Source of the DNA: Betaproteobacteria bacterium
GTDB lineage: Bacteria > Pseudomonadota > Gammaproteobacteria > Burkholderiales > Thiobacillaceae
Assembly (NCBI GenBank): GCA_016873935.1
Contig: VGVT01000015.1
Coordinates: 1-56,927 of the forward strand
Length of the DNA: 56,927 bases
Direction of reading: 5' to 3'
Positions 67 to 13,227 of this stretch are shown here, piece by piece. A model generated the notes under the pieces. It saw nothing but the letters and a program-made list of their open reading frames with translations. It made no database searches and was not told the origin of the DNA. A program made the translations under genes and the position numbers. The number at the start of each line of letters is the position of its first letter. Within the stretch, counting starts at the first letter, position 1.

Positions 67-1227
67 TCACGTGCCCCAGTGCGGCGTGGCGATGCCCTCG
101 CCCAGATCGGCATCGACCAGGCGGCGACGCGCCTCCAGCAGCTTCTCGATGAGGGCGGGCTCGGCTTGGCCGTAGGCCTCGGCATCCGGCACGCGCTTGA
201 CGACCACGCCGAGCAGTTCGGTGATGGCATTGCCGATGGAGTTCTGGCTGATGGTGACGATCAATTTGCCGGCGTCGTTGCGGTAGATGAGTTGCTTGAA
301 GGCGGGCTGCCAGCGGATGGAATTGGCGTACTTGGCGTCCTTGATGCAGCGGTCGCGCACCATCTTGGCGGACTTCAGGAAGTCGTTGTTGAACTGGAGC
401 TTTTCCTCGACCAGGGCCGGGAAGTAGATGTCTCTGGGCAGGGGCGCGTTGCGCGTGGAGACCTGGCTGAAGAAGGCGCGATAGAAGTCGATGAAGCCCT
501 TGAGGATGGTGTCGTATTCCTTCCAGAAGCGGACTTCCTTGAGCGAATCGGCGTCGCCGGTCACTTCCCAGCTCGGCAGACCCTGCGGATAGCCGGTGAT
601 GGCGATCTTGCAGGAACCCGGCGTGCAGGGCCGCAGGATTTCCAGGTCCAGCTCGTCGAAGAAGGCGCGATAGACGTCGCGCATGTATTGCTGGAACAGG
701 GAATGCTGGCCGCCGTCGGTGAGGTTGGGATTGCTGGCATCGGCGAGGGGGGCGTCGCGCAGCGCCTGCTTGTCGAAGACGATGAAGTGGTTGTGCAGCA
801 TGCGGATGCTGGGCACGCCCGGCGAAGTCAGCGGCCAGGTGGCGTCGAGGCTGGCCTCGCCGGCGAGGACCAAATGTCTGTCCGGGTCCGGATACTGTTC
901 CAGCATGTAGTCGAACAGGATCTGGTTCATCCGGTTCCACACGTTCTTCACCGCCTCCGGCACCTGCGTGCGCCGCACCGGGCGGCCGAGGGGGTCGAGG
1001 ATGGAGCGCGAGGTGTTGTAGATGATCGAAGTGTCGAACTCGTTGCTATGGCCCAGGGCCTTGCGGTAGAGCAGCAGCCCTTCCGGGTTCTGCAGCAGGC
1101 CGTTGTTGTGCACCAGGTCGTTGAGGTTCTCGGTGCTGTTGAAGAACTCGTTGGGCTTCATGCCCTCGGGCACGTCGAGGGGAATGGGGCGGAAGGGGGT
1201 GACGATTTCGCGGGAACCGGACTGCAT
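67..1227 (-). CDS. Unrecognised cytoplasmic protein at the end of the hydrogenase operon
   Basis: I do not recognise this 386-residue protein and assign no function. It has no signal peptide, no membrane segment and no ferredoxin-type cysteine cluster. Visible features are an HNH-like stretch in MLHNHFIVF (residues 143-151) and a cysteine pair C201/C206 in RPCTPGSCK. The sequence is globular, with normal codon use and GC-rich third positions. It lies 112 bp downstream of the hydrogenase maturation protease on the same strand, so it may be the last gene of the hdr-mvh operon or have its own promoter. Start chosen at the ATG at 1227; a weak AGG lies 9-11 bases upstream. That it is a real gene is fairly sure; its role is unknown. 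Confidence 0.75.
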   Translation of the reverse strand: MQSGSREIVTPFRPIPLDVPEGMKPNEFFNSTENLNDLVHNNGLLQNPEGLLLYRKALGHSNEFDTSIIYNTSRSILDPLGRPVRRTQVPEAVKNVWNRMNQILFDYMLEQYPDPDRHLVLAGEASLDATWPLTSPGVPSIRMLHNHFIVFDKQALRDAPLADASNPNLTDGGQHSLFQQYMRDVYRAFFDELDLEILRPCTPGSCKIAITGYPQGLPSWEVTGDADSLKEVRFWKEYDTILKGFIDFYRAFFSQVSTRNAPLPRDIYFPALVEEKLQFNNDFLKSAKMVRDRCIKDAKYANSIRWQPAFKQLIYRNDAGKLIVTISQNSIGNAITELLGVVVKRVPDAEAYGQAEPALIEKLLEARRRLVDADLGEGIATPHWGT

Positions 1228-1339: not shown

Positions 1340-1804
1340 TCAGGCTTGCAAGGCATCCAGCACCGCGGCGACCGCGAGCGGAACCGCGCGGCTCACCGCC
1401 TCGCCCAGGCTTTCGCCGAATTCGAACTCCGGCCGCGCCTCGACGCCGACCACGCGGATGTCCTCCGGCAAATCCAGGCCCGACTCCCGGGCGAAGACCA
1501 GGGCGGAGCGCAGGCTCAGGTCGTGCACGGAGGCGGTGTGCTGCACACCCAGCTCGTCCAAGTCGCGGGCGGCGAAGCGGTGCAGGCTGCCGGGCGCGGC
1601 GCCGGTGGTCATGGCATCGACGATGATCGCCCGGCGATAGCCGGCCAGGTGCTCGACCAGCGACAGTCCGCCCAGGGAAAGGCACAGCACATCCACCTCG
1701 GGATCGTCGACCGCCTCGCGCACCCTTTCCGCCACCCGCCAGCCCACTCCGTCGTCGCCGAGGATGGGATTGCCGAGACCGACGACCAGGGTGGTGGCGG
1801 TCAT
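1340..1804 (-). CDS. Hydrogenase maturation protease (HycI/HyaD family)
   Basis: A 154-residue nickel-dependent endopeptidase that removes the C-terminal tail of the [NiFe]-hydrogenase large subunit after metal insertion, in the cytoplasm. The family signature GLGNPILGDDGVG is at residues 9-21, with the nickel-binding acidic residue in LGDDGVG; a second conserved acidic stretch is IIVDAMTTG near residue 61, and a conserved histidine is in ASVHDLS. The length is normal for the family. Its start overlaps the stop of the upstream large-subunit gene by 4 bp, so the two are translationally coupled, and that subunit (MvhA-like) is its evident substrate. Confidence 0.93.
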   Translation of the reverse strand: MTATTLVVGLGNPILGDDGVGWRVAERVREAVDDPEVDVLCLSLGGLSLVEHLAGYRRAIIVDAMTTGAAPGSLHRFAARDLDELGVQHTASVHDLSLRSALVFARESGLDLPEDIRVVGVEARPEFEFGESLGEAVSRAVPLAVAAVLDALQA

Positions 1805-3258
1805 CCGCGCAGCACCTCTATCACCTCCCCCGTCGCGTCGTGGATGCTGACCTGCAGCGGAATCTTGCCCGGCAGGGCATGGGTGGCGCAGCCCAGGCAG
1901 GGGTCGTAGGCGCGGTAGGCCATCTCGATGCGGTTCAGCAGGCCCTCGGTGACCACCGTGCCGGCCTTGATGAAGGACTGCGCCGCCTTCTTGATGGACA
2001 TGCCCATGGCGGCGTTGTTGTTGGTGGTGCCGACCACCAGGTTGACCATGCTGAGCAGGCCGCGCTCGTCGGTGCGGTAGTGGTGGGTCAACGTGCCGCG
2101 CGGCGCCTCGACGATGCCGATGCCTTCCGTCGGCGGATTCGTGGGCAACGCGCGCACCTCGGGCGAGGTGATCTCCGGATCGGTGGCCAGTTCCACCCAG
2201 CGCTCGGCGGCGTAGAGCAGCTCGATGAGGCGTGCCCAGTGGATCGCCAGGCGGCTGTGGGCGGGCTTGCCCAGGGTGGCGACGAACTTCTCGTATTCGG
2301 CCTGGGCGAGCGGCGTGGCCATGCCGTCGGAAACATTCAGGCGGGACAGCGGCGTGGCCATGTAGACCCCGGAATCCGGGCCGTCCACGAAGCCCTTCCA
2401 GCCCACCTTCTTCAGGTAGGGGAATTTCAGGTAGCTCCAGGGCTCCACCCGTTCGGTGATCCAGTCGGTGTATTCGTTGGCGGAATACATGCCGTGCAGG
2501 CTGCCGTCCGGACCGACCACCCGCACCTTGCCGTCGTAGAAATTCACCTTGTTGTTGGCGTCCACCAGGCCCATGTAATAGGTCCTGTGGGTGTAGGCGT
2601 CCCCCAGGATCAGGTCCAGATAGTCCTTGTTGCCCAGCACCAGGTCGTGGAAGGCCTGGAGGGCGAACTGGCCGAACTCCACGGCCCAGCGCCCCATCTT
2701 CTCGATCTCCTGGCGCTCGGCTTCGGAGAGGACCTTGGTCATGCCGCCGGGGACGGCGGTGCAGGGGTGGACCTTGCGGCCGCCGATGATCTCCACGGTG
2801 GTGTGGCCGTACTTGCGGGCCTGGATCACCTTGCCGCCGATCTCCAGGCCCACCTTCCGGATGACGCCCAGGATGTTGCGTTCCGCCACCGGGGTGTCCG
2901 GGCCCATGATGAAGTCCGGCCCGCCCAGGATGAAGAAGTGGGTGGTGTGGTCGGCGACGAAGAAGGCGGAGTACAGCAGCTCCCGCAGCTTGCGCCCAGC
3001 GGGGGGCGGCGTCAGGCCGTAGACCGCGTCGGCGGCCTTGGCGGCGGCCATGTGGTGGGCCTCGGGGCAGACGCCGCAGATGCGGTTGGTGAGGGTGGGC
3101 ATCTCCTCCACCGGGCGGCCCACGCAGAAGCGCTCGAAGCCGCGCAGTTCCGGCACCTGGAGATAGGCGTTGGCCACGTCGCCGGCGTCGTCCAGGAAGA
3201 TCTCGATCTTGCCGTGGCCTTCGAGACGGGTCAGGGGATCGATGCTGATGCGTTGCAT
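1801..3258 (-). CDS. mvhA: [NiFe]-hydrogenase large subunit, group 3c (MvhA-like)
   Basis: A 485-residue catalytic subunit carrying the Ni-Fe site. The N-terminal L1 motif RICGVC is at about residues 59-64 and the C-terminal L2 motif DPCLGCATH near residue 452. Together they give the four cysteine ligands. The tail after the histidine, about 25 residues starting ALPGKI, is the part expected to be removed by the protease encoded next. The sequence resembles F420-non-reducing (Mvh) hydrogenase subunits more than Hup or Hox enzymes, and its partners MvhG, MvhD and HdrABC lie directly upstream. It is separated from mvhG by about 115 bp filled with two strong hairpins. No hypABCDEF genes are in the window, so metal-site assembly must be encoded elsewhere. 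Confidence 0.93.
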   Translation of the reverse strand: MQRISIDPLTRLEGHGKIEIFLDDAGDVANAYLQVPELRGFERFCVGRPVEEMPTLTNRICGVCPEAHHMAAAKAADAVYGLTPPPAGRKLRELLYSAFFVADHTTHFFILGGPDFIMGPDTPVAERNILGVIRKVGLEIGGKVIQARKYGHTTVEIIGGRKVHPCTAVPGGMTKVLSEAERQEIEKMGRWAVEFGQFALQAFHDLVLGNKDYLDLILGDAYTHRTYYMGLVDANNKVNFYDGKVRVVGPDGSLHGMYSANEYTDWITERVEPWSYLKFPYLKKVGWKGFVDGPDSGVYMATPLSRLNVSDGMATPLAQAEYEKFVATLGKPAHSRLAIHWARLIELLYAAERWVELATDPEITSPEVRALPTNPPTEGIGIVEAPRGTLTHHYRTDERGLLSMVNLVVGTTNNNAAMGMSIKKAAQSFIKAGTVVTEGLLNRIEMAYRAYDPCLGCATHALPGKIPLQVSIHDATGEVIEVLRG

Positions 3259-3276
3259 GTCGTTCTCCGTTCGGTC

Positions 3277-3369
3277 CCCTCTCCCGCGGGCGGGAGAGGG
3301 TTAGGGAGAGGGGAATGCCTGGTCTTGCTTCCCTCTCCCCCGGCCCCTCCCCCGCTTGCGGGGGAGGGG
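3277..3369. repeat. Two strong hairpins between mvhG and mvhA
   Basis: CCCTCTCCCGC (3277-3287), loop GG, then an 11-bp perfect complement to 3300. A second: CCCCTCCCCCGC (3344-3355), loop TT, 12-bp perfect complement to 3369. Both belong to the same C/G-rich palindrome type. They fill the gap and may act as partial terminators or stabilisers. Confidence 0.85.
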
Positions 3370-3374
3370 AGAAA

Positions 3375-4364
3375 TTACGGCTCCTCGGCCAAAGCTTCCC
3401 GGTTCGCCCGCAACAGGGAATGGGCCAGGCTGAAGCGGTAGAAGCTGCCGGCCGGGTCGGGGATGCCGTTTAGCACCCGGTCGATGGCTTCCGGCTCATT
3501 CGCGTCCACCACCGAGGCGATGGCGGTCATCAGCCGGGCGCCCTGGTCCAGCACGCCGGGGGCGGCGCCGTAGCAGCCGATGCAGGGCGCGCCCACGTTG
3601 GGGCAGCGGGAATTGCAGCCGCTCCGCGTCGCCGGGCCGGCGCACAGGAGGCCCTGCTCCAGCAGGCAGTCGGTGGTGTTCAGTTGCGGCAGTTCCTGGA
3701 TGCGGGAGAGCTTGTCGATGACTTTCACGTCCCGCTTGCGGGCGCATTCGTCGCACACGGTGGAATTGCCGGCGCCCAGCACCGCGCCCTTGGGGGGCAG
3801 TTCGGCTTCGCCCTTCACCACCTGGATGAGCACGTCCAGGATGGCGGCGATCTGATGGGATTCCGGCGGGCAACCCGGGACGTGGTAATCCACTTCGACG
3901 ACCTGATCCAGTGTCCGGATCACGGCTTGCAAGGGCGGCAGGGTCAGGGTGCCTTCGGGAACCTGGCAAGCAGCCTGGGGGCGCAGGTGATTGGGGTTTT
4001 CGGTACTGGGACTCTCGTAGGCCCGCTCGAAGATCTGTTCGCGCGGGCTCAGGTTGGCAAGGCCGGGAATGCAGCCCTCGTTGGCGCAGGAGCCGAAAGC
4101 CACCAGGATTTTCGATTTCCTCCGCAACAGCTTGGCCAGGTGCTCGTTCTCGTCGGTGCGGATGCTGCCGTTGAACAGGGTGACCAGGATGGATTCATCC
4201 TCCATGGCCTCCACATCCTTGTACTTCGCGTCCATGGCCGCCGGCCAAAAGGCCACGTCGAAATTGGCGTCCAGGTCCAGCACCTTCTCGTCGATGTTGA
4301 GCACCGCGATCTCGCAGCCGCCGCAGGAAGCGGCCCAGTACATGGCGAATTTGGGTTTGCTCAT
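3375..4364 (-). CDS. mvhG: [NiFe]-hydrogenase small subunit, group 3c (MvhG-like)
   Basis: A 329-residue electron-transfer subunit that binds the proximal, medial and distal Fe-S clusters. Cysteine motifs in order are SCGGCE near residue 11, GSCANEGC near residue 93, a PGCPPESH motif near residue 160, and a C-terminal set beginning CDECARK and ending GAPCIGCYG. It has no twin-arginine signal, so the enzyme is cytoplasmic, as expected for group 3. The ATG at 4364 was preferred to an upstream in-frame start at 4409 because AAGGA precedes it at normal spacing and because MSKPKFAMYW matches the usual N-terminus. The gap to mvhD contains a large composite palindromic repeat. Confidence 0.92.
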   Translation of the reverse strand: MSKPKFAMYWAASCGGCEIAVLNIDEKVLDLDANFDVAFWPAAMDAKYKDVEAMEDESILVTLFNGSIRTDENEHLAKLLRRKSKILVAFGSCANEGCIPGLANLSPREQIFERAYESPSTENPNHLRPQAACQVPEGTLTLPPLQAVIRTLDQVVEVDYHVPGCPPESHQIAAILDVLIQVVKGEAELPPKGAVLGAGNSTVCDECARKRDVKVIDKLSRIQELPQLNTTDCLLEQGLLCAGPATRSGCNSRCPNVGAPCIGCYGAAPGVLDQGARLMTAIASVVDANEPEAIDRVLNGIPDPAGSFYRFSLAHSLLRANREALAEEP

Positions 4365-4407
4365 GGGGTGTCCTTGGTTAGCGGTGGCGGGATTGAGGAG
4401 CGAGGTC

Positions 4408-4501
4408 AAATCCCCCCTGTCCCCCCTTTACAAAGGGGGGAACGCCCGGCCAACCGACAACGACACTCCCCCCTTTCCTAAAGGGGGGCTGGGGGGGATT
4501 T
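4408..4501. repeat. Composite palindromic repeat between mvhD and mvhG
   Basis: Outer arms AAATCCCCCC (4408-4417) and GGGGGGATTT (4492-4501) are exact inverses. Inside are two hairpins, each CCCCCCTTT with AAAGGGGGG (4421-4440 and 4468-4488). It resembles the dispersed AAATCCCCCC-type repeats found in many genomes. Confidence 0.9.
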
Positions 4502-4511
4502 CGCCAACCGT

Positions 4512-4988
4512 TCACGCCGCCACCTCGCTCAATTTGGGAATTTCCGCCGGCGCGGTGGCCACGGGCAACGGCCGGGCCGGCCAGTTGAGGGGTCCCAGGG
4601 CTTTCACCTCGTTCACCATGGCGGCGATCTCCTCGGCGAACAAGGCACCTTCGGCGGCGCTGGCCCAGGTCAGGCGCACCCGCGCAGGTTCGATGCCGAA
4701 CTGGGCCAGGGTCTTCTGCAACAGGCGATGCCGCCGCAGAGCCTTGTAGTTCTGTTCCAGGTAATGGCACTCGCCCGGGTGGCAGCCGGCGATGAGCACG
4801 CCGTCGGCGCCCTCGGACAGAGCCTTGAGCACGAAGGTCGGGTCGATGCGGCCGCTGCACATGACGCGGATCAGGCGCACGTTGGGCGGATACTTGATGC
4901 GCGCCGTGCCGGCGAGGTCGGCGGCGCGGTAGGAGCACCAGTTGCAGGTGAAGCCGATGATGACCGGCTCGAAAGTGGAATCACTCAT
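4512..4988 (-). CDS. mvhD: Hydrogenase/Hdr linker iron-sulfur subunit (MvhD-like)
   Basis: A 158-residue [2Fe-2S] protein that passes electrons from the MvhAG hydrogenase to HdrA. The conserved cysteines are in CNWCSYRAAD (residues 15-18), RVMCSGR (near 44) and GCHPGECHY (near 68-73), which matches the MvhD/FrhD-type delta subunit. The C-terminal roughly 20 residues are alanine- and proline-rich and probably not structured. Its ATG overlaps the TGA of hdrA by 4 bp (ATGA), so translation of the two is coupled, which agrees with direct contact in the complex. Confidence 0.92.
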   Translation of the reverse strand: MSDSTFEPVIIGFTCNWCSYRAADLAGTARIKYPPNVRLIRVMCSGRIDPTFVLKALSEGADGVLIAGCHPGECHYLEQNYKALRRHRLLQKTLAQFGIEPARVRLTWASAAEGALFAEEIAAMVNEVKALGPLNWPARPLPVATAPAEIPKLSEVAA

Positions 4989-7036
4989 ACGACCTCCGGT
5001 ACTCGGCTGAAGTCCCGCAACAGGCCTTCGATCTGCGCGAACAACTGCGCGTTGCTGAAGCCGGTGCCCTGGATGGCGCCGGCTGGACAGGCGGCGACGC
5101 AGGTGCCGCAGCCCTGGCAGAGGGCGGCGTTGATCTCGGTGACCTTGCGCGCCGCGTCGAAGGAAATCGCGTTGAAGGGGCAAAGACCGTTGCAGAGGCG
5201 GCAGCCGGAACATTGTTCGGCGAGGACACTGGCGCGCACCGGCTCCAGGGCCAGCTCGCCCTGGCGGATGTAGTTCAGCACCCGCGCCGCCGCCGCCGAG
5301 CCTTGCGAGACGCTGGCGGGGATGTCCTTGGGGCCGGCGGCGCAGCCGGCGATGAAGACGCCCTCGGTCATGGTGGCGATGGGGTCCATCTTGGCGTGCT
5401 TCTCGATGAACCAGCCGTTGCTGGAACAGGCGATGCCGAAGGTCTTGCCCACTTCCGCGCTGTCGCGTCGCGGTTCCAGGCCGGCGGAAAGCACCACCAT
5501 GTCTACCGGGATGCGCCGCTGCATGCCTGCCAGGGTGTCCTCCACCTGGACGTAGAGGGTGCCAGCGCCATTGCGGCTCGCCTCGGCCGGATCGAAGGGA
5601 ATGTCGGTGATCTCGGCCACCTTGCCGCGCACGAAATGAATGCCGTCGTCCAGCACCCGCTGATAGAACTCGTCGTACTCCTTCCCCGGCGTGCGGATGT
5701 CGATGTAGAAGTTGTAGACCTCGGCGCCGGTGCGCTCCTTCACCAGGTGCGCCGTCTTCAGGCTCTGCATGCAGCAGATGGCGGAGCAGTGGCGGTTGTA
5801 GGTGCGGTCCCGGCTGCCCACGCAGTGGACGATGCCCACGGTTTCCGGCGTGCTCTTGCCGTCGCGCATGACCACCTTGCCGCCCGTGGGGCCGGCGGCG
5901 TTGCACATGCGTTCCAGTTCCAGGTTGGTGAACACGTTGGGCAGGCGCCCGTAGCCGTATTGCGGGATGCGCCGGGCGTCGAACAGATCCCAGCCGGTGG
6001 CCAGGACGATGTTGCCGACGCGCAGGGTGACCCGTTCCTCCTTCTGGTCGAACTTGATGGAGTTGGGCACCGTCGGGCAGAACTTCTCGCAGGCCTTGCA
6101 GCCCCCCTTGCCGCCCACGTAGTAGGTGCAGGTGTCCGGGTCGAGCACGGGCAGGTTGGGCACCGCCTGGGCGAAGGGCCAGTAGATGGCCTTGCGGTAG
6201 CCGATGCCGGCCTCGAACTTGTCGTCCACCACCAGCACCGGACATTTCTCCACGCAGATGCCGCAACCGGTGCAGACGTCCTCGTCCACGTAGCGGGGCT
6301 TCTTCTTCACCGTCACCGTGTAGTTGCCGACGAAGCCCTCCACCTTCTCCACCTCGCTCCAGGTGAACAGGTGGATCTTCGGATGGCTGCCCGCCGCCGC
6401 CATCTTCGGCGTCAGGATGCAGGCGGCGCAGTCGAGGGTGGGAAAGGTCTTGTCGAACTGGGCCATGTGGCCGCCCAGGGAAGCTTCGCGCTCCACCAGC
6501 ACCACCTCGTAGCCCGCCTCGGCTACCTCCAGGGCAGCCTGGATGCCGGCGATGCCGCCGCCCACCACCAGGGTCTGGGCGTCGATGGGCACGCGGATGG
6601 CCTCCAGCGGGTCGTTCTTCAGCACCCGCTCGACGGTGCCGCTGACGATGGCCTTGGCCTTCGCCGTCGCCGCCGCCTTGTCGGTGTGCACCCAGGCCAC
6701 GTGCTCGCGGATGGAGGCCATCTCGGACAGATAGGGGTTCACCCCGGAACGCTCGCAGACGCCGCGGAAAGTCTTCTCGTGCAGGTGCGGCGAACAGGCG
6801 GCCACGACCACGCGGGTCAGTTGCTGCTCGTGGATGTCCTGCTCGATCAACTCCTGGCCGGCCACGGAGCACATGAAGGTGTAGTCGCGCGCCAGCACGA
6901 CGCCGCGGTCCTTCAGGTCCTCGGCGGCGAACCGGGCGACCGACTCGACGTCGACGACCCCGGCGATGTTGGTGCCGCAGTGGCAGACGTAGACACCGAT
7001 GCGTTCCTGGCTTTCGGGTTTGCTGTTGTCGGTCAT
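4985..7036 (-). CDS. hdrA: Heterodisulfide reductase subunit A, FAD-containing
   Basis: A 683-residue flavin subunit and the proposed site of electron bifurcation. The N-terminal domain has cysteines in VCHCGT (18, 20), MCSVAG (56) and AACSPH (81), the ligand pattern of full-length HdrA. The FAD-binding GGGIAG is at 159-164. There is an LDCAACILTP motif near 201-210, a ferredoxin-type CTGCGICVEKCP at 255-266, and two further [4Fe-4S] motifs near the C-terminus (CSGCRLCNGLCP and CQGCGTCVAACP). This is the complete architecture seen in methanogen HdrABC-MvhADG complexes, not the shorter sHdrA of sulfur-oxidising sHdr systems. The gap to hdrB carries an inverted pair of palindromic repeats. Confidence 0.94.
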   Translation of the reverse strand: MTDNSKPESQERIGVYVCHCGTNIAGVVDVESVARFAAEDLKDRGVVLARDYTFMCSVAGQELIEQDIHEQQLTRVVVAACSPHLHEKTFRGVCERSGVNPYLSEMASIREHVAWVHTDKAAATAKAKAIVSGTVERVLKNDPLEAIRVPIDAQTLVVGGGIAGIQAALEVAEAGYEVVLVEREASLGGHMAQFDKTFPTLDCAACILTPKMAAAGSHPKIHLFTWSEVEKVEGFVGNYTVTVKKKPRYVDEDVCTGCGICVEKCPVLVVDDKFEAGIGYRKAIYWPFAQAVPNLPVLDPDTCTYYVGGKGGCKACEKFCPTVPNSIKFDQKEERVTLRVGNIVLATGWDLFDARRIPQYGYGRLPNVFTNLELERMCNAAGPTGGKVVMRDGKSTPETVGIVHCVGSRDRTYNRHCSAICCMQSLKTAHLVKERTGAEVYNFYIDIRTPGKEYDEFYQRVLDDGIHFVRGKVAEITDIPFDPAEASRNGAGTLYVQVEDTLAGMQRRIPVDMVVLSAGLEPRRDSAEVGKTFGIACSSNGWFIEKHAKMDPIATMTEGVFIAGCAAGPKDIPASVSQGSAAAARVLNYIRQGELALEPVRASVLAEQCSGCRLCNGLCPFNAISFDAARKVTEINAALCQGCGTCVAACPAGAIQGTGFSNAQLFAQIEGLLRDFSRVPEVV

Positions 7037-7063
7037 GGCGCGACACCTGTCTGAAAAACCGCC

Positions 7064-7133
7064 GTCATACCGGCGCAGGCCGGTATCCAGGACGACGGTT
7101 CAATGACTGGATTCCGGCCTGCGCCGGAATGAC
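7064..7133. repeat. Inverted pair of GTCATTCCGGCG-type palindromes between hdrB and hdrA
   Basis: Unit 1 at 7064-7090 has stem ATACCGGC/GCCGGTAT; unit 2 at 7107-7133 has ATTCCGGC/GCCGGAAT. The two units are near-perfect inverses of each other (GTCATNCCGGCG... ATCCAG). This is a known type of dispersed extragenic palindrome. Confidence 0.9.
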
Positions 7134-7158
7134 GATCGGGTAGGGTTGCGCCCATGCC

Positions 7159-8124
7159 TCACTCCATCCCCGGCATGGGCAGCGCATCGCCAGGCTTCGG
7201 CCGGCGCTTGCGCTTGGCCTCCGCCACCTTGGGCGCCTCGGCCTGGATCCTGGACAGGGCCGGGGCGGCGTCGACGAACTCCTTGCCGATGCCCAGTTCC
7301 TTCGCTTTCTTGCCGAAGGCCAGGCCCATCAACTGGGTGAAATACAGCACCGGCACGCGGTAGTCGGTGTGGAAGTGCTTGTTCATCTCCACCTGGTAGG
7401 CGTCCAGGTTCAACTGGCACATGGGGCACAGGGTCACCACCAGGTCGGCGCCGGCCTCCTGGGCGCCGTGGATCAGGCGGCGGATCAAGCCGAAGGCGAC
7501 GTCCGGGCCGATCACCGTCATGTGGCCGCCGCAGCACTGGGTCTTCAGCGCCCAGTCAACCGGTTCGGCGCCGAGGGCGGCGAGCAGCTTGTCCATGGAG
7601 GTGGGGTGCTCGTGGTTGTCCCAGCGGCCGTCGTAATCCGGGCGCACCACCTGGCAGCCGTAGTAGGCCGCGACCTTGAGGCCGTGCAGCGGCTTCACCA
7701 CCCTGGCCTTCACCGCCTCGTAGCCGATGTCGTGGCAGACCAGGTCGAGCAGATGGCGCACCTTCATGGCGCCGGGTTGATACTCCAGGCCGCCCGCCGC
7801 CAGGGCCTGGTTGACCGTGTCCTTGAGGCCGGCGTCTTCGCGCATCTGGTTGTCGGTCTTCGCCAGGTTCAGGTAGCAGGCGCTGCAGCCCGCCGTAAGC
7901 AGGTCGGTGTCCCCCGCCTGTTCCCGCGCCAGGGCCAGGTTGCGGCCGACCAGGGCATGCGCGGCGACGCGGTGCACCGACATGTACTCGGTGGCGCCGC
8001 AGCAGTTCCAGTCCTGGATTTCCTGGAGTTCCAGGTTGATGTCCTCCCTGATCGCCTGCAACGAATCCAGATAGGGCCGCGCATTTTTCTGCATGGAACA
8101 GCCGGGATAGAACAGCGCTTTCAT
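7159..8124 (-). CDS. hdrB: Heterodisulfide reductase subunit B
   Basis: A 321-residue subunit of the CCG-domain family that reduces the disulfide substrate at two non-cubane [4Fe-4S] clusters. The first motif is C9, C41-C42, then C80-x2-C83 (spacing C-x31-CC-x37-CxxC). The second includes YYGCQVVRP, TQCCGGHMT and LCPMCQLN. The C-terminal 40 or so residues (RKRRPKPG region) are basic and look like a lineage-specific tail. The ATG at 8124 overlaps the hdrC stop by 4 bp. The natural disulfide in a betaproteobacterium is not known; coenzyme M-coenzyme B is not expected. Confidence 0.93.
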   Translation of the reverse strand: MKALFYPGCSMQKNARPYLDSLQAIREDINLELQEIQDWNCCGATEYMSVHRVAAHALVGRNLALAREQAGDTDLLTAGCSACYLNLAKTDNQMREDAGLKDTVNQALAAGGLEYQPGAMKVRHLLDLVCHDIGYEAVKARVVKPLHGLKVAAYYGCQVVRPDYDGRWDNHEHPTSMDKLLAALGAEPVDWALKTQCCGGHMTVIGPDVAFGLIRRLIHGAQEAGADLVVTLCPMCQLNLDAYQVEMNKHFHTDYRVPVLYFTQLMGLAFGKKAKELGIGKEFVDAAPALSRIQAEAPKVAEAKRKRRPKPGDALPMPGME

Positions 8125-8705
8125 TGCAGCCCCCTTTCCAGCGCCTTGGCCTTGTCGAGGATGGCTGTCAGTTGCGCCATGTTGTCGATCTTGTGCGGCG
8201 TCAGGTCCATGCGCCCGCGTTTCAGCATGCCTAAGCCCAGGGGCGCCATGCCGGTCAGGCTCAGCGGGTGATGGCGCAGGTTGAAGCGGGTGGCGATGCC
8301 GAGTTCGAAGCTGCGGCCGTATTTCTCCACGTAGTCGACGAAGGTCTCGGAGAAATCCGGCAGCGAGGTGTCGTGGAAGAGCCCCGCCTCGATCGCCATG
8401 GCCTTCAGCGTGTACATCAGCTCGGTGATGTGCACCTCCTGCGGACAGCGCACGGTGCAGTAGTAGCAGGACACGCAGTACCAGGGCGCGTTGCTGCGCA
8501 GCACCTGTTCCCGCTCGTCGGCGCGGATCAGCGCGAACAGCCGGCGCGGGGTGTGCTCCATCTCCCGCCCGGCCGGACAGGAACCGCCGCAGGAGCCGCA
8601 CTGGATGCAGAGGTCGAGGCGGTTGTCGCCCGGCGTCCTGTCCATGACTTCACCGAGAAAGCCGGGACGGCCGGAGGCGGAGGGAACTCTGGTTGCCGCG
8701 TTCAC
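8121..8705 (-). CDS. hdrC: Heterodisulfide reductase subunit C
   Basis: A small electron-transfer subunit with two [4Fe-4S] clusters bound by CIQCGSCGGSCP and CVSCYYCTVRCP, linking HdrA to HdrB. It is soluble, so this is the HdrC of the cytoplasmic HdrABC type and not the membrane HdrE/HdrC pair. I chose the GTG at 8705 (194 residues) because GAGGAG lies 6 bases upstream; a GTG at 8735 in the same frame is the alternative and would add 10 residues. It is the first gene of the operon hdrC-hdrB-hdrA-mvhD-mvhG-mvhA-protease. Confidence 0.9.
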   Translation of the reverse strand: MNAATRVPSASGRPGFLGEVMDRTPGDNRLDLCIQCGSCGGSCPAGREMEHTPRRLFALIRADEREQVLRSNAPWYCVSCYYCTVRCPQEVHITELMYTLKAMAIEAGLFHDTSLPDFSETFVDYVEKYGRSFELGIATRFNLRHHPLSLTGMAPLGLGMLKRGRMDLTPHKIDNMAQLTAILDKAKALERGLQ

Positions 8706-8903: not shown

Positions 8904-9977
8904 TCAGCGGCGCGCGGGCCGGGGCCGGACGGGGCCGGGTTTGTCCTTGGGGGTCGCCGCATCGGGCCGCGCGGCGCGCTCCTTCTCCACCTCGGCGGCC
9001 ACGCGGTACACGGCCTGCAGCAGGTCGCGGCCGATCTTGTCCTCGAAGGCGCGATGCACGGGCAGCAGTGCCTGTTGCCAGATGACGCGGTCCTTGTAGG
9101 GCAATACATAGATTTGCGTAGTGCCGGCCGCCTTGACGCGGGCCAGCGCGGCGTCGTTCTCCTCCTGGGCGATGCCGCGCTCGTACACCGTGGCGGAGTG
9201 CATGGCCCCCTCCAGGATGGCGCGCAGATCGGCGGGCAGGCTTTCCCAGAAGGCCTTGTTGACGATGACCGCGTAGCCCAGGTAACCGTGATCGGAAAGG
9301 GTCAGGTGCTTCTGCACCTCGTGCATGCGCTGCGTGGCCAGATTCGACAGAGGATTCTCGGTGCCGTCCACCACGCCCTGGCGCAAGGCCTCGTGGGCGT
9401 CGGAGAACGCCATCACCCGCGGCTGCGCGCCAAGGGTGCGCATCTGCGCCTCGATCACCCGCGAGGACTGGATACGCATCTTCAGGCCCTGGAAATCCTC
9501 GACCCGGCGCAGGGGGGTATTCGCGCTCATCTGCTTGAAGCCGTTGTCCCAATAGGCCAGGCCCTTGACGCCGCGTTCCGCCAGCATGGCGAACAGCCGC
9601 GCGCCGACTTCGCCGTCCATCACCCGGTGCAGGGTTTCCAGGTTGGGAAAGATATAGGGCAGATCGAACAGCTCGAAGGCGTGCACGCCCAGGGGCCCGA
9701 ACTTGGCCAGGGACGGTGCCAGCATGTGCACCGCGCCCAGGCGCAGCGCCTCCATTTCCGTGCGGTCCTGGTAGAGCTGGCCGGCGGCATACACCTCCAC
9801 CCTGACCCGGCCGCGGCTGCGCTCCTCGGCCAGTTTCTTGAAATATTCGGCGGCCTTGCCCTTGGGCGTGTCGGGGACCACCACATGGGAGAACTTGATG
9901 ACGATGGGCTCGGCCGCCTGAGTGGCGCAGGCGGCGAGTGCCAGCAGCAGGGCGAACAGGGTTGCGCGCGATGACAT
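8904..9977 (-). CDS. dctP: TRAP transporter solute-binding protein (DctP family), second copy
   Basis: A 357-residue periplasmic binding protein. The signal peptide SRATLFALLLALAACATQAA ends just before AEPIVIKFSHVV. Family features are the GxxxMLAPSLAKFGPLGV stretch, FDLPYIF, and the signature KMRIQSSRVIEAQMRTLGA containing the arginine that binds the substrate carboxylate. C4-dicarboxylates are the usual ligands but are not proven here. The C-terminus has an extra proline/arginine-rich tail of about 25 residues absent from the paralogue at 12223-13227. It is the last gene of the TRAP cluster, after dctM and a long hairpin. The ATG at 9977 was chosen at the start of the signal peptide. Confidence 0.9.
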   Translation of the reverse strand: MSSRATLFALLLALAACATQAAEPIVIKFSHVVVPDTPKGKAAEYFKKLAEERSRGRVRVEVYAAGQLYQDRTEMEALRLGAVHMLAPSLAKFGPLGVHAFELFDLPYIFPNLETLHRVMDGEVGARLFAMLAERGVKGLAYWDNGFKQMSANTPLRRVEDFQGLKMRIQSSRVIEAQMRTLGAQPRVMAFSDAHEALRQGVVDGTENPLSNLATQRMHEVQKHLTLSDHGYLGYAVIVNKAFWESLPADLRAILEGAMHSATVYERGIAQEENDAALARVKAAGTTQIYVLPYKDRVIWQQALLPVHRAFEDKIGRDLLQAVYRVAAEVEKERAARPDAATPKDKPGPVRPRPARR

Positions 9978-10050
9978 GACGAAGACATCCTCGATGCGGG
10001 AGCGATGATTGATCCTAGACCCGCCGGCACGGATCACAAGCAGAACCTTG

Positions 10051-10082
10051 CCGCCGCCCGAGCGCTTCCGGTCGGGCGGCGG
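10051..10082 (-). promoter_or_regulatory. Strong hairpin between dctM and the second dctP
   Basis: An 11-bp perfect stem (CCGCCGCCCGA at 10051-10061 pairing with 10072-10082) with a 10-base loop. No T-run follows on the minus strand, so it is not a classical terminator. It may stabilise upstream mRNA or limit read-through into the downstream dctP. Confidence 0.5.
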
Positions 10083-10098
10083 CGGTCCGATCAGCTTG

Positions 10099-11382
10099 CT
10101 ACATCATGCCCAGCGTGCGCGGCAGCCACAGCGACAGGGGCGGGTAGTAGGTGACGATCATCAGGAACACCAGCATGGTGAGCAGCCACGGCCACACCGC
10201 GATGGACATCTCGGTCAGGCCCAGCTTGCTGATGCCGCTCGCCACATACAGGTTGAGGCCCACCGGCGGCGTGATCATGCCGATCTCCATGTTCACCGTG
10301 ATCATCACGCCGAAATGCACCGGATCGATGCCCAGGGCCATGGCGATGGGGAACAGGATGGGCGCGGTGATGAGGATGATGGAAGACGGCTCCATGAAGT
10401 TGCCCATGAGCAGCAGCAGGATGTTCACCGCCAGCAGGAAGCCGACCACGCCGAGGCCGCTGGTCATCAGCCAGTCCGAGATCTGCTGCGGGATGTTCTC
10501 GTGCGTCAGCAGGAAGGAGAACAGCACCGCGTTGGTGATGATGTACAGCAGCATGGCGCTCATGTTGGCCGAGGCCAGCAGCACCTTGGGCACGTCGCGG
10601 ATGGAGAAGTCCCGGTACACGAACACCACCACGATGAAGGCGTAGACCGCGCTCATCGCCGCCGCCTCGGTGGGCGTGAACAGGCCGGAATAGATGCCGC
10701 CCATCACCACGATGATCAGCATCAGCCCCCAGATGGCCTCGCGGAAGGCCTTCCAGCGTTGCCCCCAGGTGGCCCGCGGCTCGCGCGGATAGCCGTTCTT
10801 CTTGGCGCGGTACCAGGTGGTGAACAGCAGCATGGAAGCCAGCACCAGGCCGGGGATGACACCAGCCATGAACAGGGCGCCGATGGAGCTGTTGGTGGAC
10901 ACCGCGTACATCACCATGACGATGGACGGCGGGATGAGGATACCCAGGGCGCCGGAACTGGCCACCACGCCGGCCCCGAAGCGCCTGGGATAGCCGGCCT
11001 TGAGCATGGCCGGCAGCAGGATGGAGCCGATCGCCACGACGGTGGCCGGGCTGGAGCCGGACACCGCCGCGAACAGGGCGCAGGCCACCACCGCGCCGAG
11101 GCCGAGACCGCCGTGCCAGTGCCCCACCAGCGATGTGGCGAAGCGGATCATGCGCTTGGCCACACCACCGTGGGTAAGGAAGTTGCCGGCCAGGATGAAG
11201 AACGGGATGGCCATGATCTCGAACTTCTCGATGCCGGTGAACAGCTTCAAGGCCACCGCGTCGATGGGGACCTGGGTCAGGGTATAGAGGAAGGTCAGCA
11301 CCGTCAGGCCGAGGGCGATGGAGATCGGCATGCCGGTGAGCATGAGCACGGCCAGCAGGCCGAAGATGATCAGTTCGGTCAT
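10099..11382 (-). CDS. dctM: TRAP transporter large permease (DctM)
   Basis: A 427-residue inner-membrane protein with about 12 hydrophobic segments, the sodium-coupled transport subunit. Visible family features are FFILAGNFLTHGGVAKRMI near residue 62, the SGSSPATVVAIGSILLPAM re-entrant region near 110, and NLYVASGISKLGL near 375. Its length is standard. The start overlaps the dctQ stop by 4 bp. It acts with DctQ and one or both flanking DctP proteins. Confidence 0.95.
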   Translation of the reverse strand: MTELIIFGLLAVLMLTGMPISIALGLTVLTFLYTLTQVPIDAVALKLFTGIEKFEIMAIPFFILAGNFLTHGGVAKRMIRFATSLVGHWHGGLGLGAVVACALFAAVSGSSPATVVAIGSILLPAMLKAGYPRRFGAGVVASSGALGILIPPSIVMVMYAVSTNSSIGALFMAGVIPGLVLASMLLFTTWYRAKKNGYPREPRATWGQRWKAFREAIWGLMLIIVVMGGIYSGLFTPTEAAAMSAVYAFIVVVFVYRDFSIRDVPKVLLASANMSAMLLYIITNAVLFSFLLTHENIPQQISDWLMTSGLGVVGFLLAVNILLLLMGNFMEPSSIILITAPILFPIAMALGIDPVHFGVMITVNMEIGMITPPVGLNLYVASGISKLGLTEMSIAVWPWLLTMLVFLMIVTYYPPLSLWLPRTLGMM

Positions 11383-12110
11383 GGCCGCTTCTCCTTGTCC
11401 GCGTCCTTGCTTTCCTCGCCCAGCAGGGGTTCTTTCAGTTCGTGCGGGTGCAGAGCGTCGTCCATGCGGTAGATGCGGTCATCTTCGCCGGGTTTGGGCG
11501 GTGTCGCCTCATCCTCCACCCCGGACACCTTGCCGTGGTCGTGGTGCGGCAGTTCGCCGGTGCGCAGGAAGCTCCAGGTCACCTGCAGGAAGCGGAAGCA
11601 CATCAGGGAGGAACCCAGGGGAATCGCCGAATAGACGATCCAGGTGGGCCATTCCAGGTCCGGGGTGGTGGGTCCCTCGGGGATGTCGCCGACATCCAGG
11701 CCGCGCCAGGTCAGCCAGGCGTAATGGGCGCCGTTCTCCCAGACGAAATGGGCGCCGAGGACCGCGATGACGCCGGTGAAGAAGGCGCCGGCGAGCAGGC
11801 CGATGACGATGAAGACACCGCGCTTGCGGTCGCTCAACTGGTTGATGAGCACGTCGACGCCGACGTGGATGCCGGTGCGCACGCCGTAGGCCGCGCCGAA
11901 CTTGGCCATCCACACGAACAGGATGATGGTCAGTTCCTGCGCCCAGGCCAGGTTGAGCTGGATCAGCCAGTCCTGCACGGCCTCGGAGGGAATCCAGTTG
12001 GAACTGGCGAGGTAGCGGTGCACCACCGCCGTGAAGGTGATCAGCGTGGCGGCGCCGATGAGGAGGGAGATGAAGATCTCCTCCAGGTGATCGAGGATCT
12101 TCATGAACAT
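11379..12110 (-). CDS. dctQ: TRAP transporter small permease (DctQ)
   Basis: A 243-residue small membrane subunit with four hydrophobic segments spread over residues 10-180. At 243 residues it is longer than the usual 160-200 because of an acidic, lysine-rich cytoplasmic tail of about 60 residues with HDHGK and HPHELK stretches. It is translationally coupled to dctM. The upstream gap of about 110 bp to the first dctP holds a perfect hairpin. Confidence 0.9.
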   Translation of the reverse strand: MFMKILDHLEEIFISLLIGAATLITFTAVVHRYLASSNWIPSEAVQDWLIQLNLAWAQELTIILFVWMAKFGAAYGVRTGIHVGVDVLINQLSDRKRGVFIVIGLLAGAFFTGVIAVLGAHFVWENGAHYAWLTWRGLDVGDIPEGPTTPDLEWPTWIVYSAIPLGSSLMCFRFLQVTWSFLRTGELPHHDHGKVSGVEDEATPPKPGEDDRIYRMDDALHPHELKEPLLGEESKDADKEKRP

Positions 12111-12155
12111 GGCGGCATCCCGAGGCTGTGTCCGGCACCCTCACCCGGATGGACA

Positions 12156-12178
12156 CCATCCAGGCTGGGCCTGGATGG
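12156..12178 (-). promoter_or_regulatory. Perfect hairpin between dctP and dctQ
   Basis: CCATCCAGGC (12156-12165), loop TGG, GCCTGGATGG (12169-12178): a 10-bp perfect stem. Hairpins at this position often protect the binding-protein part of the message so that it is made in excess over the permease. There is no T-run after it on the minus strand. Confidence 0.55.
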
Positions 12179-12222
12179 ACGCGGGCGAGGGGACGCGGTC
12201 GGTTTGTGGGTGAAGCCGGGGC

Positions 12223-13227
12223 TTACAGCTTGGACGGATCGAAGCCGGTTTCCTTGTAGATGCGCTGCACCATCTCCACGCCCAGGCGGTCATCCATCTT
12301 CTCGTGGACGCTCACCAGGGCCTTCTTCAAGGCGGCCTTCTCGGCGGCGGTGGGCGTGTAGATCGTGGTCTTGCCCGACTTGCGCACCGCCTCCAGGGAC
12401 TCGTCGTTCTCCTGCTTGGCAATCTTGTTGGCGTACTCGGTGGATTCCTTCATGGCCTGCTCGAGCTGCGCGCGGATGTTGGCGGGCAGGCCCTCCCAGA
12501 ACTTCTTGTTGGTGATCACCGCGTAGCCCAGGTAGCCGTGCTCGGTCAGCGACAGGTGCTTCTGCACCTCGTGCATCTTCTGGGTGTAGAGGTTGGAGAT
12601 GGGATTCTCGGTGCCGTCCACCACGCCGGTCTGCAGGGCCTGGTAGACCTCGGAGAAGGCCATCACCTGGGGCAGCGCGCCGAGGGCGCGCATCTGCGCG
12701 TCGAGCACCTTGGAGGACTGGATGCGCATCTTCAGGCCGCGGAAATCAGCCGGCGTCTTCAGCGGCTTGTTCGCCGAGAAGGACTTGAAGCCGTTGTCCC
12801 AGAAAGTCAGGCCCTTGACGCCCTTGGGTTCCAGGCGGTTGAGCAGTTCGCGGCCGATGGGGCCCTGCGTGACCTTATTGAGTTCCTGGTAGTTGTCGAA
12901 GATGTAGGGCAGATCGAAGACCTCGAATTCCTTCACGCCCAGGGGGCCGAACTTGGCCAGTGACGGCGCCAGCAACTGCACCGCGCCGAGCTGCAGGGCC
13001 TCCATCTCCTCCTTGTCCTTGTACAGGGTGCTGTTCGGGTACACCTCCACCTTCACCGCGCCCTTGGTCAGCGCCTCGGCGCGCTGCTTGAAGTAATCCG
13101 CCGCCTTGCCCTTGGGCGTGTTCTTCGCCACCACGTGGGCGAACTTGATGACGATGGGTTCGGAAGCCTGGGCGGCGAAAGCGGCAAGGCCCAGAGCCAG
13201 GGCGAGCAAGGAAGAACGCAGACGCAT
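12223..13227 (-). CDS. dctP: TRAP transporter solute-binding protein (DctP family), first copy
   Basis: A 334-residue periplasmic binding protein with a clear signal peptide (LLALALGLAAFAAQA, then SEPIVIKFAHVV). The substrate-binding signature KMRIQSSKVLDAQMRALGA and the sequence DGTENPISNLYTQKMHEVQKH are nearly the same as in the downstream copy, so the two arose by duplication. It leads the dctP-dctQ-dctM-dctP cluster. The start at 13227 is supported by GAGGGGA 6-8 bases upstream. C4-dicarboxylate uptake is the most likely role. Confidence 0.93.
   Translation of the reverse strand: MRLRSSLLALALGLAAFAAQASEPIVIKFAHVVAKNTPKGKAADYFKQRAEALTKGAVKVEVYPNSTLYKDKEEMEALQLGAVQLLAPSLAKFGPLGVKEFEVFDLPYIFDNYQELNKVTQGPIGRELLNRLEPKGVKGLTFWDNGFKSFSANKPLKTPADFRGLKMRIQSSKVLDAQMRALGALPQVMAFSEVYQALQTGVVDGTENPISNLYTQKMHEVQKHLSLTEHGYLGYAVITNKKFWEGLPANIRAQLEQAMKESTEYANKIAKQENDESLEAVRKSGKTTIYTPTAAEKAALKKALVSVHEKMDDRLGVEMVQRIYKETGFDPSKL

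Follow-up and report, generated by a model that had tools for sequence, protein, structure and literature searches.

A complete HdrABC-MvhADG-type gene set in a Thiobacillaceae-like betaproteobacterium, and the electron acceptors it may serve

This study concerns a seven-gene hdr-mvh operon on the minus strand of a stretch of 56,927 nucleotides (the window), which is contig C15 of a betaproteobacterial genome. A complete HdrABC-MvhADG-type gene set is present in this genome, with all six enzyme subunits encoded together in the order hdrC-hdrB-hdrA-mvhD-mvhG-mvhA, followed by the gene of a maturation protease. Our preferred reading, to which we assign a probability of roughly 0.55, is that the products form a cytoplasmic, H2-oxidizing, flavin-based bifurcating complex, in which the outlet at HdrB is not the heterodisulfide of coenzymes M and B (CoM-S-S-CoB) but perhaps a quinone-linked one, and from which reduced ferredoxin passes to PFOR and Rnf. 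At the level of sequence, this is supported by the complete subunit set, its order, the conserved cysteines and the 3c type of MvhG and MvhD.

Organization of the operon

An earlier note, made from the bare sequence, had placed seven genes of one direction at positions 1340-8705, in the above order, and had assigned them to an HdrABC-MvhADG-type architecture; both statements were correct. The features are as follows.

8121..8705, minus strand: hdrC, two ferredoxin motifs of the [4Fe-4S] type; GTG start codon preceded by GAGGAG
7159..8124, minus strand: hdrB, ten motif cysteines in two CCG domains
7159..7224, minus strand: C-terminal tail of hdrB (residues 301-321), of low confidence in the structural model; LPMP at 7171-7182
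7037..7158, minus strand: hdrB-hdrA gap, palindromic dispersed repeat
4985..7036, minus strand: hdrA, FAD and Fe-S subunit of 683 amino acids, separate from MvhD
4512..4988, minus strand: mvhD (FlpD family), five cysteines
4365..4511, minus strand: mvhD-mvhG gap, dispersed palindromic repeat
3375..4364, minus strand: mvhG, long small subunit with an extra cluster domain
3259..3374, minus strand: mvhG-mvhA gap, palindromic sequence
1801..3258, minus strand: mvhA, [NiFe] large subunit, C-terminally extended and with the two CxxC motifs
1340..1804, minus strand: hydrogenase maturation protease (HycI/HyaD family; TIGR00072, 120.3 bits, cut-off 47.45)

All seven proteins matched the expected Pfam and NCBIfam families. 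The same gene order was found in 60 of 80 related loci (the best 80 of 563 relatives in the genome collection), 58 of them with all seven genes and 2 without a protease match, which argues against a chance arrangement. The other 20 comprise 18 loci that agree up to the end of the contig and 2 that differ at hdrBC.

The earlier note had described the genes as joined by ATGA overlaps. Overlaps of 4 bases do occur at hdrC/hdrB, hdrA/mvhD and mvhA/protease, but the other three of the six junctions are gaps of 122 (hdrB-hdrA), 147 (mvhD-mvhG) and 116 bases (mvhG-mvhA), made up mostly of palindromic repeats. Among the betaproteobacterial relatives, the hdrB-hdrA gap measures 3 or 6 bases in loci L009, L010, L014 and L015, and 67 and 100 bases in L012 and L013; the mvhD-mvhG gap is -4 in four of the six; and the mvhG-mvhA gap, of 114 and 120 bases in L009 and L010, is closed in two of the six (3 bases in L013 and L015). 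The three gaps of the window carry three different palindromic repeats; the hydrogenase maturation region (L117) contains numerous other copies of the family at 4365-4511, and the family at 7037-7158 recurs in L116 and L117.

Subunits and cluster sites

The six enzyme subunits matched the solved methanogen subunits with 655 (HdrA), 412 (MvhA), 193 (MvhG), 169 (MvhD), 165 (HdrB) and 65 bits (HdrC), the score of HdrA applying both to 5odc_A and to 8rvu_a. The HdrABC-MvhAGD complexes of Methanothermococcus thermolithotrophicus (5odc) and Methanothermobacter marburgensis (8rvu) have the same six subunits and cluster motifs, and likewise an HdrA separate from MvhD.

For the alignments we retained matches covering at least 70% of the query, the window counted: 61 of 64 for HdrB, 59 of 61 for HdrC, 67 of 71 for HdrA, 71 of 71 for MvhD, 73 of 78 for MvhG and 80 of 81 for MvhA. 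The earlier note had asked about the disulfide-site cysteines of HdrB; all ten (two CCG sites of five each) were present in 61 of 61 rows, so that both clusters are complete. The eight motif cysteines of HdrC (59/59 rows), the five of MvhD (71/71) and both CxxC pairs of MvhA (all 80) were equally invariant. In HdrA, 27 of 30 cysteines were invariant across 66-67 rows, C94, C378 and C565 being the variable ones, and the FAD site, N-terminal cysteines and C-terminal ferredoxin domains ascribed to this subunit by the earlier note were all recovered by the family matches, the methanogen-subunit matches and the cysteine alignment.

The note had proposed to check by phylogeny whether MvhA belongs to group 3c. 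MvhG, a long small subunit (192.8 bits to MvhG 5odc_E versus 54.1 to HoxY 5xf9_C), and the linked MvhD are of 3c type. The large subunit scored 412.2 bits to MvhA versus 354.5 to HoxH and 392.4 to Hyl, and its tree neither shows nor rejects 3c: grouping with methanogen MvhA gave a P value of 0.463 in the approximately unbiased (AU) test, and one tree grouped it with 3d at 96/84. Nor can 3c and 3d be told apart by the NCBIfam VhuA model at scores under its cut-off, since the host's own HoxH (L115:4385-5863; 419.0 bits) outscored the MvhA of the window (388.6 bits). In two trees, which took in 28 and 17 of the 80 MvhA rows, the betaproteobacterial MvhA formed one clade (99/96 and 97/95) beside a Chloroflexota clade.

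HdrB type, C-terminal tail and hdrBC replacement

The HdrB of the operon shares 38% identity (220.5 bits) with the Qmo-linked HdrB that the host encodes on contig C12, and 29-31% with methanogen HdrB (144.8-164.8 bits, obtained in a separate program run), from which it also differs in residues beside the clusters. QmoAB-HdrBC, which is used by Gram-positive sulfate reducers, provides its nearest HdrB kin in the phylum sample: of 24 further HdrBs fetched, 23 adjoin qmoB and one has a cut flank, these being the best-scoring matches, ahead of a weaker set (114-148 bits, 25-31%). The consensus motifs DWNCC and CPxCQLNL are common to the HdrB clade and Qmo-HdrB but not to methanogen HdrB, and of 113 positions conserved in the clade, Qmo-HdrB matches at 65 and methanogen HdrB at 50. 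In sulfur oxidizers, QmoAB-HdrBC is reported to be linked to APS reductase (PMC2211403), and it involves no hydrogenase.

Over the last 306 of its 321 residues, HdrB fell below the curated cut-offs of TIGR03288 (203.3 of 345.15) and NF041780 (94.1 of 450), as well as that of the quinone-linked subunit SdhE (NF042965; 189.2 of 500). The score with the SdhE model was close to that with the HdrB model, and exceeded it in three of the four relatives scanned.

The AlphaFold2 model of HdrB had a mean predicted local distance difference test score of 87.9, falling to 46-47 over tail residues 301-320. This tail, preceded by a variable Lys/Arg-rich linker, contains LPxP in 57 of the 61 Mvh-linked HdrBs and LPMP in 55. 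LPMP is absent from the host's Qmo-HdrB and from the 24 others (23 complete, one cut), as well as from the remaining six proteins of the operon in the aligned loci. Three of four methanogen HdrB chains end at most 3 residues past the aligned core, and the fourth has 19 unseen residues. Four loci (L026, L050, L062 and L066) have the same HdrA-Mvh genes and an HdrB that is divergent (43-46%) and lacks the LPMP tail, and L034 has another hdrCBA set farther along its contig (14830-17585; HdrA 44% identical).

In the two loci that differ at hdrBC, both from Chloroflexota (L051:1527-6495 and L083:1021-6284), the place of these genes is taken by those of a CCG protein, of Etf beta and alpha, and of a fusion protein with a CCG domain. 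The fusion protein has a hydrophobic N-terminal half and is encoded directly before hdrA-mvhDGA; a NarI-like label for this half is a reading by eye, which no Pfam match at E 1e-10 supports.

Distribution and hosts

The best 80 relatives comprise seven betaproteobacterial loci (81-96%), the remainder (73-79%) being titled Chloroflexota or groups thereof, except one titled Chthonomonadales. The seven betaproteobacterial records, all metagenome-assembled genomes (MAGs) by title, are named Thiobacillus, Hydrogenophilales, Gallionellaceae, Burkholderiales or less. Within the family, the operon was detected (MvhA, E 1e-130 or better) in 8 of 117 genomes, namely in 7 of the 23 genomes of the genus and in 1 of the 94 others; some of the genomes counted as non-carriers are incomplete. 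Of 368 other genomes in the class sample, three matched MvhA at E 1e-115 (42-44% identical); these proteins appeared HoxH-like by eye, and two of them have HoxU-like neighbours. No plasmid carriage was found at E 1e-80, the four plasmid records that matched MvhA being 39.0-40.4% identical and annotated as hoxH or Ni/Fe hydrogenase subunit alpha.

The distribution is thus patchy, and the operon lies in changing places. The seven betaproteobacterial loci (the window, L009, L010 and L012-L015) have five sets of flanks, which rules out a fixed insertion site and indicates that either the operon or its surroundings moved. A downstream gene encoding 386 amino acids (window 67-1227) is present in 22 of the 23 genus genomes, in two of them only as pieces, with upstream neighbours that differ in the ten regions read; at E 0.001 its product matched nothing in Pfam or NCBIfam. 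Immediately upstream of the operon (window 8904-13209) lie the genes of a TRAP transporter, with dctM and dctQ between those of two DctP-type binding proteins, a region shared only by L009 among the flank-searched loci.

The host genome (2.70 Mb, 98.26% complete, 1.66% contamination) contains a dsr cluster, qmoAB-hdrCB (on C12) and two rnf clusters, one of which encloses a PFOR-like gene (names assigned by eye). Together with the titles of the relatives, the dsr and qmo genes bear out the setting named in the earlier note, and a sulfur-oxidizing, Thiobacillaceae-like betaproteobacterium is supported as the host. A misbinned or end-of-contig artefact is unlikely, because L009, on a contig of 315 kb, has the same flanks and because housekeeping genes lie in the window.

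COX1-family and DsrC proteins were sought in the genomes of 50 of the 80 loci (6 betaproteobacterial and 44 others, one titled Chthonomonadales). A COX1-family match was found in 46 of these carriers (6/6 and 40/44, respectively), with the top match per genome at E 5e-119 or better. Judged by score and length these look like true oxidases, in a family that also holds nitric oxide reductases and in genomes where MAG contamination is possible. The window itself encodes the cbb3 oxidase subunits ccoN and ccoO, both above their cut-offs. Poudel et al. reported in 2018 a clade of MvhA from anaerobic members of the Chloroflexi and Proteobacteria, and Mvh homologues are described there as occurring in obligate anaerobes (PMC6085437). 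Judged by taxa alone, this is probably the clade studied here; the carriers, so described there as obligate anaerobes, differ from ours, most of which have a COX1-family protein.

Since that clade is in print, the operon is known in kind. It is new as a variant, because of its oxidase-gene hosts, its HdrB type and tail, and the replacement of hdrBC in two relatives. The literature searched contained no report of the operon in Thiobacillaceae, most subscription papers lying outside the searched set. A group 3c Mvh was described in 2013 in the betaproteobacterium 'Candidatus Symbiobacter mobilis' (PMC4053972) as accompanied by an HdrA with an NADH domain and without HdrB or HdrC, in contrast to the window, where HdrBC is complete.

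Electron flow and its possible outlets

While subunits and cluster sites can be read from the sequence, the path of the electrons is inferred from the solved methanogen complexes. By this analogy, MvhAG would take electrons from H2 and MvhD would hand them to HdrA, the presumed bifurcating protein, whose flavin would split them. One stream would leave by the C-terminal ferredoxin domain of HdrA and reduce ferredoxin; the second would pass via HdrC to HdrB and its two noncubane clusters.

PFOR and Rnf would then use the reduced ferredoxin. Such an outlet is supported by gene content, namely the host PFOR (1650.5 bits), a PFOR-like protein inside an rnf cluster, the second rnf cluster and the neighbourhood in L015, where the operon lies between a divergently oriented PFOR gene and an ntrB-like kinase gene. 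On the host's contig C70 the same PFOR and ntrB-like genes (80% and 82% identical) are adjacent without the operon, and the adjacency in L015 may be due to chance. The PFOR-like protein (1653 amino acids) is encoded on contig C14 (L113:2948-13526), and match coordinates place such a PFOR-like gene within a few kb of rnf in at least 14 of the genus genomes. Nitrogen metabolism, offered by the earlier note as another use of the ferredoxin, found no support, because the host and two other carriers gave only weak, partial nifH matches; nifH was above cut-off in 10 of the 23 genus genomes, and among the seven carriers three have it and one has a fragment, which rules out nitrogenase as a general ferredoxin sink.

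The acceptor on the HdrB side is, we infer, not CoM-S-S-CoB. Given bifurcation, our first choice, at clearly less than even odds, is a quinone-linked outlet such as has been proposed for the related Qmo complex: HdrB would act at the membrane, or via a partner that binds to the LPMP tail. The Qmo-like HdrB, the SdhE score, the loci with the CCG replacement, the COX1-family proteins and ccoN/ccoO speak in favour of it.

Several observations weigh against this reading as a whole. Grouping of HdrB with the methanogens gave an AU P value of 0.428, in a tree (21 of the 61 HdrB rows, 10 Qmo, 4 PDB and 1 other row) that does not tell a Qmo affinity from a methanogen one. The best PDB fold matches of HdrB are methanogen HdrBs (5odc_B, template modelling score 0.94 of target), and the fold search does not discriminate. 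L051, one of the hdrBC-replaced loci, belongs with L028, L046 and L063 to the four carriers in which no COX1-family match was found, and PFOR neighbours the operon only in L015. Moreover, POR-family proteins (above cut-off in 23/23 genus genomes), RnfC (22/23) and DsrC are found whether or not a genome carries the operon; therefore, no searched partner tracks it.

The same bifurcating complex might instead reduce a disulfide at HdrB, whether of a DsrC-type protein, another thiol protein or a small molecule. Given bifurcation we regard this alternative as slightly less probable than a quinone-linked outlet, with which it overlaps. HdrB keeps the ten cysteines of disulfide-reducing clusters and a fold like that of methanogen HdrB, and the host has six DsrC-family matches, with some in all 23 genus genomes. 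However, the protein does not track the operon within the genus, and although DsrC is found in 6/6 betaproteobacterial carriers and 13/44 others (two weakly), the remaining 31/44 have no match, which weakens it as a general acceptor. Nor was any thiol-protein neighbour evident, by eye, among the open reading frame clusters common to at least 3 loci.

Operation in reverse, in which electrons of reduced ferredoxin and of a second donor would be confurcated to protons, making the complex an H2-releasing valve under anoxia, appears quite improbable. The host PFOR could produce reduced ferredoxin; confurcation has been proposed for QmoA and QmoB (PMC6037941), and H2 evolution for the Mvh-HdrA of 'Candidatus Symbiobacter mobilis' (PMC4053972). 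The other [NiFe] hydrogenases of the host, which from neighbours and sequence, by eye, we take to belong to groups 3d, 1d, 1e (Isp type) and 2b, include uptake (1d, 1e) and regulatory (2b) types, which indicates that H2 serves as fuel. A thiol or a quinol, given the potentials, would also be a poor donor for proton reduction. Finally, an ordinary NAD-linked (group 3d-like) hydrogenase with the Hdr genes as passengers is scarcely credible, for all the closeness of its large subunit to HoxH and Hyl and its 3d grouping in one tree, since no diaphorase genes lie beside the operon, the partners are of MvhG/MvhD type and the same seven-gene order occurs in two phyla.

Implications

A complex that had been reported only from obligate anaerobes is now placed in bacteria with terminal-oxidase genes. 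The family of LPMP-tailed HdrBs, together with the relatives in which hdrBC is replaced, provides a set for testing the acceptor of bacterial HdrB. A further extension of the preferred reading, which we regard as doubtful, is that in O2- or nitrate-respiring Thiobacillaceae and Anaerolineae the complex passes electrons from H2 to ferredoxin while HdrB is pulled by the oxidized quinone pool, directly or via an LPMP-bound partner. If true, this would be flavin-based bifurcation driven by respiration and not by a heterodisulfide; with the quinone pool as the outlet, H2 could drive the reduction of ferredoxin at the expense of respiration.

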